Positions 54,470-60,740 of a stretch of DNA of 64,000 nucleotides are shown here, piece after piece. The notes under the pieces are model-generated. The model made no database searches. It was not told the DNA's origin and was given only the letters and a program-made list of their open reading frames with translations. Numbering within the stretch: position 1 is the first letter of the stretch; every line of letters starts with the position of its first letter. Origin of the DNA: Sulfurovum sp. TSL1 (GTDB lineage Bacteria; Campylobacterota; Campylobacteria; Campylobacterales; Sulfurovaceae). A program made the position numbers and the translations under genes. The DNA is taken from positions 913,106-977,105 of the forward strand of contig NZ_BPFI01000001.1 of the NCBI RefSeq assembly GCF_019972135.1, read 5' to 3'.

Positions 54470-54503
54470 CTGTAGGGGAGGACCCCTGTGTCCTTCCCTA
54501 CAG
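54470..54503. repeat. GC-rich 30-bp repeat, hairpin copy between convergent genes
   Basis: CTGTAGGG-AGGAC and GTCCT-CCCTACAG form a stem of about 14 bp with a short loop. Its reverse complement (ending GTCCTCCCCTACAG) belongs to the same family as the repeats at 59340-59369 and inside the gene at 59409-60740. Lying between two convergent genes, it may act as a bidirectional terminator. Confidence 0.65.
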
Positions 54504-55521: not shown

Positions 55522-56262
55522 CTATGATCTAAGCGTATGGTTCAAGATCCTATTGTTTTCCCATACTTTTGCATACGATTCACTCATGAACACATCATCC
55601 AAAAACCTCGTCTGTTTGAGATGGTGCACATCAGATCCTAAAAAATCGATCATGCCATGCTTAGAAAGTATCTCTGCTTTTTTCATGGCATCTTTACCGT
55701 AGTGTCCCCCCAGAGAATTCAGATCAACCTGGAACAGTACGCCAAGCTCTTTAAATCTGCCATATTCTTTGAGCGGATCACTCACATAACGGTAACGTTC
55801 AGGATGTGCCATAAGCGGGACATAGCCTGAAGCCGAAATTTCAAAGATCATATCTTCGATCTGCAGCGGCTTCGTAGCATAAGAGGTTTCAAAAAGAAGG
55901 TATTTCCCATGGATGCTCATCACTTCACCGCTATGTAGATGATTATAGAATCCTTCATCCAGGTAGTACTCTGCAGCCGCTTCTATCTCCAGCTTTATCC
56001 CTTCAGCCTTTGCCGCTTCTCTTAAAGCAACCAATCCCTCTTTGATGACCTGGGGTGTATTGCGGTAGAGATCAAACATGATATGCGGTGTAGTGATCAC
56101 TTTTTCATAACCCAGTGCTTCCATTCCCTTCAAAAGAGAAAGACTCTCCTCCATACTTTGGGAACCGTCATCGATCCCCGGGATGAAGTGTGAATGCAGG
56201 TCCACTTTTAGAATAGGTCCTCTCTTTTTCTCTTTGTGTTTTTTAAAAAAAGGAAAGATCAT
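55522..56262 (-). CDS. CpsB/CapC-type PHP-family tyrosine-protein phosphatase
   Basis: The 246-residue metal-dependent phosphatase has the PHP motifs VDLHSHFIPGIDDGSQSMEES near residue 20, VITTPHIM, MAHPERYRYV and FLGSDVHHL. CpsB enzymes dephosphorylate the tyrosine tail of the Wzc/CpsD kinase. Its start overlaps the wzc stop by 4 nt, so kinase and phosphatase are coupled. Here a PHP enzyme takes the place of the low-molecular-weight Wzb phosphatase of enterobacteria. Confidence 0.9.
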   Translation of the reverse strand: MIFPFFKKHKEKKRGPILKVDLHSHFIPGIDDGSQSMEESLSLLKGMEALGYEKVITTPHIMFDLYRNTPQVIKEGLVALREAAKAEGIKLEIEAAAEYYLDEGFYNHLHSGEVMSIHGKYLLFETSYATKPLQIEDMIFEISASGYVPLMAHPERYRYVSDPLKEYGRFKELGVLFQVDLNSLGGHYGKDAMKKAEILSKHGMIDFLGSDVHHLKQTRFLDDVFMSESYAKVWENNRILNHTLRS

Positions 56263-58562
56263 TTGCTGTCTTCCTCATAATATCCGTAACCATAGCCGTA
56301 ACCGTAGCCATAACCGTTTCTTGCCATTTTCACATCATTGAGCAAGATACCTAAACCGCTGATCTCCTCTTTCGAGAGTTTCTCTATGCTGCGTAAAAAA
56401 CCTTTTTTTGAGTAATCGGCTCTAAACACATACATACTTGTATCTGCAAAATGCATCAACGTTCTTGCATCAGTTACCAGGCCTACCGGAGGGGTATCAA
56501 GGATGATCACATCATACACTTCTCTTAGCTTTTCCAGTACCTTTTCCATCAAAGGACTCTGGATCAATTCACTCGGGTTTGGCGGTACAGGCCCAGAGGT
56601 GATGATATCCAGATTGTCATACTCAGTCTTCTGGATCACCTCTCCTAAAGCAGTATGACCAGAGAGTAAAGTACTCAAACCTTTACTGTTTTGAAGTCCA
56701 AATCTCTGATGCAGGGTCGGTTTCCGCATATCAAGATTGAGTATAACTGTTTTCTTTTCAGCCATACTCATGATCCCGCCCAAATTCATACAGATCATCG
56801 TTTTCCCTTCCCCACCGACCGTTGAAGTGATCGCGATGACACGGGCATTTTTATCCCTTGCCATAAACTGCAGGTTGGTACGTATGTTCCTGAACGATTC
56901 TGCCAAAGCAGATTTCGGAGATAAAAATACCTGGACCTTTTCATTACCCTCTTTAATATGCGGGATCAGTCCAAGTATAGGTACATCTGTCATCTTAGTG
57001 ACATCCTCCTCCTCTTTGATACGGTCATCCAAAAATTCTCTTAAAAAGGCAACAGCGATCCCCAGTATAAGCCCCAGGATCACCCCTATCAGTACGATCA
57101 ACTTTCGCTTAGGTTTGATAGGAGACTCAGGGTAAAGTGCTTCATCGATGATCCTGTTCTTACTGACGGTCGATTCTTTAATGATCGCTGTTTCTGAGCG
57201 TTTTTCCAGTAAATAAGAGTATATCTTCTCATTCACCGCAAACTTACGCTGCAGTTGTCCAAACATACGTTCATCTGCAGGAAGTGTATTGAGAAGCTTC
57301 TGCTGCTCAGCGATAGACTTCTCGATCAAGTCTTTTCGCTCTTTAATGCTTTTATTAAGACTTTTGATCGTAGAGGTGATCAACGTCTTAAGTTGCGCTA
57401 TCGTTTTACTTAATTTACGGACCTCAGGGTACATCTCAGTATACTCTTCACGCAAGATCTTCTTTTTCACGGTTGCATCTTGAAGTTCTTTGATCATAGA
57501 AGAGAGTGAAGCCCCCTCTTTATCCAATCCGGCTATTGTGATACTCTCAAGGTCTTTTCCTGACTTGACCTGTTCATACAAGGTACTCAGCATCTCCATC
57601 TCTATCGATATCTCTGCCAGTTTCGTTTCTGATTCACTCATCTGACGGATGATATTTTCCGCTTTGGCACTTAAACTGACCGTATTGGATGTTTTTTTAA
57701 ACTCTTCAAGTTTGATCGCTGAACCCTTAAGATTTTCCGTGATCAATTTCAACTGATTATCAATAAAAGTAAGTTTACGGGTTGCTTCTTGTGTCTTTTT
57801 CTCTATGTTTTGTTCTATATAGGCTCTAGCCAAAGCATTGGCAAATTCCTGGGCACGTAAGGCTACATTATCACTATAAGAGATCTCCAAGATAGTAGAA
57901 TACTTTGAACTCTGACTTACGCTTACACCCTTCTGAACATAGCTAGCTACTCTTTGGGGGTCCATCACCATAAAACGGTACGCTGCAGCACGTGGCTCTT
58001 TGGTTTTAGTGACATTGAGATGAAAGTGTTCCGTCACGATCTCTTTGTCGTAGCTATGTACCGTATCATAAGACCATGTATTACCCTGGGTGTCTTCAGC
58101 CTCTTCCACCACCAAACGATAGCTGTGCTCATCCACAGGGATCAAGTTAAAAAAGAGGTTATACCCTTTGAGCATCCCTACCTGAAATGGACTCTCTTTA
58201 TAAAGTTCTATCTCTTTTAATTTTCTGGTTGTATAGTAGTGATGAGAAAAATCTACCTCTGCAAGTGCCTTTTTTGTAAGAAATCTGGATCGGATGATCT
58301 CCATCTCTGTATCAGCATTCATCGTACCTGAATCCATAGCCATGGCAAGCATATCCTGACTTCCATAGCCACTTTTATCCAAACCTACCTCAACAGTCGC
58401 CGAAGCTTTATAGACATTGGGTTGAAAATAAGCATAATAACTACTGACGGTAGCAAATAAAGTAACAAATAGAAGTATCATATATCGGTATCGATATACC
58501 GTTCTAAAGACTTCTTTAATATCTATTTCATCTTCATCTATATGCATGCTGTCTCTGTTCAT
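56259..58562 (-). CDS. wzc: Polysaccharide co-polymerase / tyrosine autokinase (Wzc-like)
   Basis: This 767-residue inner-membrane protein has a Wzz domain with membrane helices at about residues 30-48 and 480-500 and long coiled-coil segments between. The C-terminal BY-kinase domain has Walker A STVGGEGKTMICMNLGG, Walker A' LNLDMRKP and Walker B VIILDTPPVG. The tail carries six Gly-Tyr pairs and a further Tyr before EEDSK, the autophosphorylation cluster. It controls chain length and export. GGAAAAG precedes the ATG. No outer-membrane Wza gene is seen nearby. Confidence 0.93.
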   Translation of the reverse strand: MNRDSMHIDEDEIDIKEVFRTVYRYRYMILLFVTLFATVSSYYAYFQPNVYKASATVEVGLDKSGYGSQDMLAMAMDSGTMNADTEMEIIRSRFLTKKALAEVDFSHHYYTTRKLKEIELYKESPFQVGMLKGYNLFFNLIPVDEHSYRLVVEEAEDTQGNTWSYDTVHSYDKEIVTEHFHLNVTKTKEPRAAAYRFMVMDPQRVASYVQKGVSVSQSSKYSTILEISYSDNVALRAQEFANALARAYIEQNIEKKTQEATRKLTFIDNQLKLITENLKGSAIKLEEFKKTSNTVSLSAKAENIIRQMSESETKLAEISIEMEMLSTLYEQVKSGKDLESITIAGLDKEGASLSSMIKELQDATVKKKILREEYTEMYPEVRKLSKTIAQLKTLITSTIKSLNKSIKERKDLIEKSIAEQQKLLNTLPADERMFGQLQRKFAVNEKIYSYLLEKRSETAIIKESTVSKNRIIDEALYPESPIKPKRKLIVLIGVILGLILGIAVAFLREFLDDRIKEEEDVTKMTDVPILGLIPHIKEGNEKVQVFLSPKSALAESFRNIRTNLQFMARDKNARVIAITSTVGGEGKTMICMNLGGIMSMAEKKTVILNLDMRKPTLHQRFGLQNSKGLSTLLSGHTALGEVIQKTEYDNLDIITSGPVPPNPSELIQSPLMEKVLEKLREVYDVIILDTPPVGLVTDARTLMHFADTSMYVFRADYSKKGFLRSIEKLSKEEISGLGILLNDVKMARNGYGYGYGYGYGYYEEDSK

Positions 58563-59277: not shown

Positions 59278-59339
59278 TCTTTTCCCTTGTTTTTCAATAC
59301 ATAAATTATACTATTTTATGCTTTACTTTTATACATGCA

Positions 59340-59369
59340 CGGGCGGACACGGGGGTACCGCCCCTACAG
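59340..59369 (+). repeat. GC-rich 30-bp repeat, intergenic copy
   Basis: CGGGCGGACACGGGGG followed by TACCGCCCCTACAG. It differs at only two positions from the copy inside the coding sequence at 59527-59556. It lies 28 nt before the TATAAT of the downstream gene. Confidence 0.75.
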
Positions 59370-59397
59370 AATACTCCTCATTTTTCACTATATTTGC

Positions 59398-59403
59398 TAT
59401 AAT
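59398..59403 (+). promoter_or_regulatory. -10 box for leaderless nucleotidyltransferase gene
   Basis: TATAAT, CACCT and then ATG (59409): the same layout as at 53872. No Shine-Dalgarno is present upstream of the ATG. Confidence 0.6.
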
Positions 59404-59408
59404 CACCT

Positions 59409-60740
59409 ATGACAATCAATAAAGACCTAAATCTCAGTGACGAGCTATCGTTCCTCATCGCCTGCTGCCAGACAGAACCCTCTAATGAGGATATCGAATT
59501 CATCCTCTCTTACCTATCACTTGTTCCGGACGGACACGGAGGTACCGCCCCTACAGAAAAAATCCTCAAACCCAACAACTCTTATCTTAACGCTGAACGC
59601 TTAACACTACACGCTTTGATTAGTCTGGCTAATCAACATGGAGTTCTGCCTCTCGTCTACAAAACCATCAAAAATATCGTTGAAAAAGATAGCTCACTTG
59701 TTCCCGGCGATCACGAGGGTACCGCCCATATAGAATGTTCCAAGCGGACACAAGGATATCGCCCCTACGAAGAAATTCTCCCCGAGCTGAAAGCCTACTA
59801 TATGCGTATTGCTCAAAGAAATATGTTGATGACAAGTGAACTCATAAAAATTATGGACTTGCTCAGAGAGAACCATATAGAAGCACTGGCGTTCAAAGGC
59901 CCTGCACTTGCGCAGATGGCCTATGGAAATATCACGCTACGGCAGTTTGGGGATATTGATGTATTAGTGAATGAAACAGATATTCTCAAAGCAGGCCAAA
60001 TTATTACCTCAAACGGTTATAATCCAGATGTACATTTGGATTTTTTGAATAATCAAGCTTTACTGGATGTCAGTAGCGACCTAGGTTTTCGTAATAAGCG
60101 TAATAATACTTATATTGAATTACACTGGAAGCTCTTCCGAAAGAAGCTCTCAGTAACATTAGATGGATTAAATATTCGTTCCAATCCATCAGTCGTTAAT
60201 ATACAAGATAAAGAGATCCAAACATTACAATCTGATCTTTTATTAGTCTACCTTTGTGCACATGGTTCTAAGCATATGTGGGAACGAATAGAATGGATCG
60301 TAGATGTTGATAGACTTATTCGAAATTTAGACTCTATTGATTGGAAAGCCGTCTTGTATTATGCTAAAGAAATGCATAGCATTAATACACTGTTTCTTGG
60401 ATTATCACTATGTAATGAGTTGTTTGACACAGACTTTCCAGATACGATACAAAAAGAAATCGATAAGCATGAAAATATCAAATGTCTCAAAAATGATACA
60501 CTACAACTATTGAACAATACTTTTTTAAAACAAGACTCCGGCACTTCTGCTATGTTCAAAAAATTTGACTATCATGCAAAACTGTATGACTCATTTTTAG
60601 ACAGGTTAAAATACTATCTCTCTACTGTTTTCAAGATCACACCTGACGATGTCCTCAACATTAATCTGCCAAAGTATCTTTCCTTCTTATACTTCATAAT
60701 AAGACCTTTGCGCTTGGCACGAAAGTATATGACAAAATAA
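59409..60740 (+). CDS. Nucleotidyltransferase-fold protein (NTP_transf_5-like) with in-frame repeats
   Basis: The 443-residue protein has the pattern of the uncharacterised nucleotidyltransferase family PF14907: an N-terminal helical part, LIKIMDLLRENHIEALAFKGPALAQMAYGN near residue 145, and the metal-binding GDIDVLVNETD near residue 190. Members are common in polysaccharide loci; the reaction is unknown. Three copies of a 30-bp repeat are read through, at residues 38-53, 97-110 and 111-124, all between predicted helices. The stop codon abuts the stop of the convergent glycosyltransferase gene. Confidence 0.85.
   Translation: MTINKDLNLSDELSFLIACCQTEPSNEDIEFILSYLSLVPDGHGGTAPTEKILKPNNSYLNAERLTLHALISLANQHGVLPLVYKTIKNIVEKDSSLVPGDHEGTAHIECSKRTQGYRPYEEILPELKAYYMRIAQRNMLMTSELIKIMDLLRENHIEALAFKGPALAQMAYGNITLRQFGDIDVLVNETDILKAGQIITSNGYNPDVHLDFLNNQALLDVSSDLGFRNKRNNTYIELHWKLFRKKLSVTLDGLNIRSNPSVVNIQDKEIQTLQSDLLLVYLCAHGSKHMWERIEWIVDVDRLIRNLDSIDWKAVLYYAKEMHSINTLFLGLSLCNELFDTDFPDTIQKEIDKHENIKCLKNDTLQLLNNTFLKQDSGTSAMFKKFDYHAKLYDSFLDRLKYYLSTVFKITPDDVLNINLPKYLSFLYFIIRPLRLARKYMTK
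59527..59556 (+). repeat. GC-rich 30-bp repeat, in-frame copy B
   Basis: This copy matches the intergenic copy at 59340 at 28 of 30 positions and is read in the gene's frame as PDGHGGTAPTE. It is preceded by CACTTGTTC, also found before the copy at 59704. Confidence 0.75.
59704..59733 (+). repeat. GC-rich 30-bp repeat, in-frame copy C1
   Basis: This is a more diverged copy (CCGGCGATCACGAGGG then TACCGCCCATATAG), read in the same phase as copy B as PGDHEGTAHIE. Confidence 0.65.
59741..59770 (+). repeat. GC-rich 30-bp repeat, in-frame copy C2
   Basis: A further diverged copy (CAAGCGGACACAAGG then ATATCGCCCCTACGA) begins 7 nt after C1 and is read one phase later, giving KRTQGYRPYEE. Confidence 0.6.

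Follow-up and report, generated by a model that had tools for sequence, protein, structure and literature searches.

We analyzed a 64,000-nt stretch of the genome of Sulfurovum sp. TSL1 (contig NZ_BPFI01000001.1, positions 913,106 to 977,105 of the forward strand; hereafter "the window"), in which a nucleotidyltransferase gene (59409-60740, plus strand, 443 aa) carries three in-frame copies of a short repeat that also occurs in the intergenic DNA upstream of it. Judged by its sequence, this repeat is a GTAG-type repetitive extragenic palindromic (REP) sequence, a short hairpin element of ~30 nt. The protein is assigned to PF14907 (NTP_transf_5) by its profile match (E 2e-55; 188.4 bits against a gathering score of 31.2) and its predicted fold. 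Taken as a whole, it is quite probable that a GTAG-REP arrived in this region, entered a linker of the protein, multiplied by local duplication and persisted in the form of tolerated inserts, with other repeats filling the same linkers in sister species. As in-frame REPs have already been published (Di Nocera et al., 2013; PMC3733652), the kind of event is known, and the notable part is that unrelated classes of repeat have repeatedly come to occupy two linkers, which provides an unusually clear comparative record of repeat capture in a gene.

A single 42-nt direct-repeat family was recovered at 59330-59371, 59517-59558, 59694-59735 and 59731-59772, which bears out the original prediction of an element at 59340 that recurs at 59527 (28 of 30 positions identical between 59340-59369 and 59527-59556) and again at 59704 and 59741. 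Within this family, the REP copies, all on the minus strand, are A (59340-59371), which is intergenic, precedes the start codon by ~38 nt and has its GTAG foot at 59367; B (59527-59558), which is in frame and encodes PDGHGGTAPTE; C1 (59704-59735), which is in frame and encodes PGDHEGTAHIE; and the degenerate C2 (59741-59772), which encodes SKRTQGYRPYE. As predicted, the three coding copies keep the frame open, with the same codon phase relative to the start codon at 59527 and 59704 and a shift of one base at 59741. A covariance model trained on the copies of relatives alone, with the window left out, recovered A (31.0 bits), B (19.6 bits) and, weakly, C2 (15.1 bits, E 0.22), while C1 was not found by it. 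The same model found a fifth copy of 31.2 bits (54472-54501, GTAGGGGAGGACCCCTGTGTCCTTCCCTAC, strand not assigned) in the intergenic space between converging genes. This copy has GTAG at each end and is almost a palindrome. The GTAG foot, read on the minus strand, is kept in A, B, C2 and the copy at 54472, and is absent from C1, where the sequence is CATAT. A 24-nt core pattern of the repeat matched twice in the window and not once in 100 dinucleotide shuffles.

The identity of the element rests on its foot, its compensatory hairpin, its copy number in the genus and its RAYT-like neighbors (RAYT, REP-associated tyrosine transposase), which together match the definition of GTAG-REPs in PMC3733652. 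On the minus strand, copy A consists of GTAG and the stem GGGCGG...CCGCCC, and the relatives carry paired variants of this stem (e.g., GGCGGACAC..GGTCCGCC, GGCAGACAC..GGTCTGCC, and GGTGAACAC..GGTTCACC). Among 36 distinct copies from the genus, 94.8% of the stem cells were paired, and double-sided stem changes numbered 32 against a shuffle mean of 8.9, a value reached in none of 500 shuffles; the search pattern favored paired ends, but two mismatches were permitted and the changes were nevertheless paired. A pattern search of 100 relatives placed the family in 29 genomes, every one of them in the genus of the window, and the covariance search gave matches at E <=0.01 in 45 of 78 genomes of the genus, with a maximum of 63 in one genome. 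Most of the REPs sampled from relatives (81 of 104) lie outside open reading frames (ORFs) of at least 120 aa. In two relatives (loci L041 and L110), a gene flanked by such REPs has the RAYT family NF047646 as its top match (72.2 and 76.7 bits). The repeat had no match in Rfam at gathering thresholds. The exact 26-nt core of copy A, including an extra A (GGTACC), is present in genomes G007 and G010; this extra A had been a candidate for a feature private to the locus, which is ruled out by the occurrence of the 26-nt type in six other genomes.

The original prediction had likened the repeat to the Rickettsia palindromic elements (RPEs). The likeness holds in that a palindromic element dispersed in the genus has become an in-frame peptide, and it fails at the foot, which is GTAG and not the CGTC of RPE-4 and RPE-6. 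These two elements belong to the CGTC class, and GTAG and CGTC REPs are known to occur together in a Sulfurovum strain (PMC3733652). A single CGTC-REP-like match with two mismatches was seen in the TSL1 genome at G000:C1:993088-993115, ~16 kb past the window.

We then compared the protein with its homologues and found that the repeat-derived segments coincide with length-variable sites. Residues 34-57, encoded by an in-frame insertion of 72 nt in linker 1 (59508-59579, plus strand), are present in the window protein only among the 26 aligned proteins (0 of 25 homologues), so that the insertion falls at a homologue gap, as is the case for RPEs in protein genes. The second length-variable site, at residues ~93-119, includes linker 2 (approximately residues 95-119; 59691-59765, plus strand), which holds C1 and most of C2. 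The gaps had been predicted at residues 38-53 and 97-124, which is close to the observed sites. An empty linker 1 site is available in the homologue at locus L009. On either side of the 72-nt insert lie CTCTTACCT (59507-59515) and CTCTTATCT (59579-59587), which are alike at 8 of 9 positions; this match may be a target-site duplication or the trace of another process. DNA alignments computed automatically for the two sites, and for copy B with site 2, were poor and were not used. A scan of named genomes with this one protein as query yielded only two loci.

An AlphaFold model built with the 26-protein alignment (mean predicted local distance difference test score, pLDDT, 85.4; predicted template modeling score 0.86) has pLDDT below 50 only at residues 45-63 and 105-114. 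These segments sit between helices 26-37 and 67-76 and between helices 80-96 and 120-154, away from the KGP motif and the GDIDVLV region, in agreement with the original placement of the copies between helices and apart from GDIDVLV. Both inserts are thus predicted to be disordered and outside the catalytic core, and for this reason tolerance is the likeliest account of them, more so than a useful role. That the coding copies are an artefact or ordinary linker sequence with a chance similarity to the repeat is hardly credible: C1 and C2 have diverged and the covariance model misses C1, but the agreement of A with B, the lack of any match in the shuffles, the exact homologue gap and the recurrence of the core elsewhere in the genus all speak against chance, which is contradicted for copy B and could conceivably hold for C2 alone.

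Although the original prediction had the element inserted three times, this is doubtful, as the sequences around the copies make local duplication likelier for at least two of the three. B and C1 have in common a non-REP flank of 11 nt (TCACTTGTTCC), of which C2 has TGTTCC, and C1 and C2 are spaced by a 37-nt tandem step. Because of this common flank and this step, the three coding copies probably derive from one arrival followed by local duplications. Three separate RAYT-driven insertions into the gene are unlikely in light of the same flanks and spacing and of the fact that no matching RAYT was found in the TSL1 genome, even though RAYT-like genes of relatives have same-family REPs beside them and the genus has many REPs within genes. 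The sequence of events that we favor starts from the GTAG-REP as a non-autonomous hairpin element; its relatives in the genus sit beside RAYTs. One copy would have arrived in a polysaccharide-type gene cluster by past transposition or on horizontally acquired DNA, and one would have entered, in a stop-free reading, a linker between helices of the nucleotidyltransferase. Local duplications over short distances, each taking along a few flank bases, would then have given the other coding copies, as the common flank and the 37-nt step suggest, and the conserved enzyme core would have allowed only in-frame, stop-free states to survive.

The copy number in the TSL1 genome itself (2.35 Mb) is small, with two intergenic and three coding copies, all within 5.3 kb. 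Pattern and covariance searches of the whole genome (the latter scoring 150 of 497 first-look candidates) gave no copy outside the window, and the only addition to the four copies noticed originally was the one at 54472-54501, which had been missed; with strict patterns, nothing beyond the copies already known was recovered. The suggestion of a mobile or spreading element turned into peptide therefore stands as to the repeat-derived peptide and not as to spread in this genome, in which the copies detected are confined to ~5 kb and a matching transposase was not found. The single Y1 transposase detected in the TSL1 genome scores 100.3 bits as a RAYT; the 35-nt inverted repeat on its flanks has a different sequence, and no GTAG-REP of this family lies near it. 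These differing flanks rule it out as the mobilizer of the window REP. Its gene (L123, 1310-2008, in the G000:C1:338394 region) carries the 35-nt inverted hairpin repeats TTTCTCGTTCCCACGTTTTACGTGGGAATGCATAC, which belong to another REP or terminal-inverted-repeat family. Because the detected copies are confined to the window and the resident RAYT carries different flanking repeats, the window copies are most plausibly relics, or else passengers of acquired DNA. In the genus at large, the top Y1-transposase loci (L056-L067) were likewise tried as carriers of the REP and rejected, as none had such a REP nearby.

Several observations weigh against the sequence of events favored here. Transposition into the PF14907 gene itself was not observed, and dispersal in the TSL1 genome is unsupported, since no copy was detected beyond the ~5-kb region among the candidates scored. 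The scores of the RAYT-like genes in L041 and L110 fall just below the NCBIfam cut-off of 80, and the twelve other high-scoring Y1-transposase loci lack a nearby REP of this family. In addition, C1 and C2 are degenerate and are not recognizable as REPs on their own.

It is possible, and we hold it to be somewhat less than an even prospect, that the REPs entered elsewhere and that this genome obtained the gene, along with its upstream region, from a REP-rich relative in which the REPs were already in place. This would fit the clustering of all detected TSL1 copies within 5.3 kb, the GGTACC subtype that G010 and G007 have in common with copy A, the REP array on the 5' side of the PF14907 gene of G010 itself, and the best homologue, which has 60% identity and comes from another family of the order. 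Against it, none of the homologues among the relatives searched has GTAG-REPs at the same two linkers, and the homologues are at most 60% identical, so that a recent donor is unsupported.

The relatives hold other repeats in the two linkers, which is indicative that these linkers are spots that tolerate repeat DNA turned into protein. The homologue in genome G001 (L027) contains several CGTC-type copies in its linkers (RHPRARPGDPQSQSDN and VIPDSIRNPQSQSDN), and the CGTC pattern has 16 matches in that genome. A third element, of the type CCGATACCCCC..GGGGTGC, occurs in L008, L015, L019 and L021, where it lies close to the N terminus or in one of linkers 1 and 2. Few genomes of the genus have it (8 of 78 at <=3 mismatches), and its candidacy as a genome-wide repeat is accordingly unsupported. 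Of 27 homologues, 9 have arrays with a 7-nt period in the part before the KGP motif, whereas the rest of the gene has such arrays in none of the 27; periods other than 7 are almost absent. The window has a counterpart in a degenerate heptamer tract adjoining copy B (AACGCTG AACGCTT AACACTA CACGCTT; 59583-59616, plus strand; Tandem Repeats Finder score 41), which resembles the tracts in L009, L015 and L021 and is too short for the lag-7 threshold. In 316 kb of other fetched loci, a set chosen mostly by repeats and not random, period 7 was again the commonest (30 segments versus at most 6 for any other). In one intergenic stretch of G001 (L133), heptamers adjoin a CGTC-REP and a GTAG-REP-like hairpin, which is the same mosaic as in the linkers. 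The intergenic DNA of the genus is such a mosaic, in which 7-nt-period arrays of differing sequence, strict in their period, are joined to REPs, as seen in L133 (~320-720) and in the homologues L008, L009, L013 and L017. The homologue in L010 (G020) has one TGA and one TAG within its match and is probably a pseudogene.

Tentatively, and with some doubt, we suggest that the two N-terminal linkers of this enzyme family could serve as permanent acceptor sites. Each species would copy into them pieces of the repeat mosaic in its intergenic DNA (the third element, heptamers, CGTC-REPs and GTAG-REPs) via a general process independent of any one transposase, which would diversify the linkers of a cell-surface polymer gene. 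Selection on the inserts is another matter: linker length, or a REP hairpin in the 5' leader and the coding RNA, might tune the expression or the interactions of the enzyme, as could be argued from the position of copy A before the start codon, from a degenerate REP that also lies 5' of the G001 homologue, and from REPs reported near exopolysaccharide genes (PMC3733652). We regard this as quite unlikely because linker sequence and length vary freely across species, several homologues have no insert, and the hairpins predicted for B, C1 and C2 do not outperform those of shuffled sequences (z -0.33, 0.50, and 0.08, respectively); A alone among the window copies folded is clearly better (z -2.10).

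REPs inside other genes indicate that such events are common, the window being one example. In the fetched loci of relatives, 23 of 104 distinct REPs fall within ORFs of 120 aa or longer, of which a few compete with longer ORFs. Six of the ten REP-bearing proteins scanned were AnmK, PriA, DnaX or MutY, in agreement with the published bias toward replication and repair genes, and others were Mur-ligase-like or a glutamine amidotransferase. In the anmK gene, in-frame GTAG-REPs of differing sequence occur at about the same place in four genomes (L050, L052, L055, and L102; identified by Pfam in L050 and L102, and by sequence in L052 and L055).

In its GTAG foot, its short hairpin with compensatory subfamilies, its dimers and arrays, its RAYT neighbors in the genus and its in-frame copies in conserved genes, the window repeat resembles the GTAG REPs of Di Nocera et al. 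(2013; PMC3733652). It differs from them in that its own genome holds a handful of copies at a single locus, three coding copies lie in one gene, and unrelated repeat classes occupy the same linkers of sister species; the one comparable case in that study is Xanthomonas recB, which has different REPs at roughly one site. With the RPEs it has in common a palindromic repeat in frame in protein genes at sites tolerated by the fold, whereas its GTAG end, its length of ~30 nt and its phylum differ, although the L027 homologue does have CGTC-type copies. Cyanobacterial short tandemly repeated repetitive (STRR) sequences are heptamer tandem repeats that form arrays of 7-nt period in intergenic DNA. 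Such arrays are likewise intergenic here and also occur in these linkers in the relatives of the window, but the bacteria are different, and the window has only a short degenerate tract.

It is an old question from Rickettsia whether repeats in protein genes are merely tolerated or put to use. This one enzyme family, in which the core is conserved, some sites are empty and the same two linkers hold several unrelated classes of repeat, constitutes a compact natural series for this question. In the annotation of such proteins, caution should be exercised so that repeat-derived linker peptides are not taken for conserved domains.

The PF14907 gene is surrounded by genes of polysaccharide type (window ORFs named from their sequence, with no search): 56259-58562 encodes a Wzz/tyrosine-kinase-like protein, and the genes from 60741 onward are glycosyltransferase-like.
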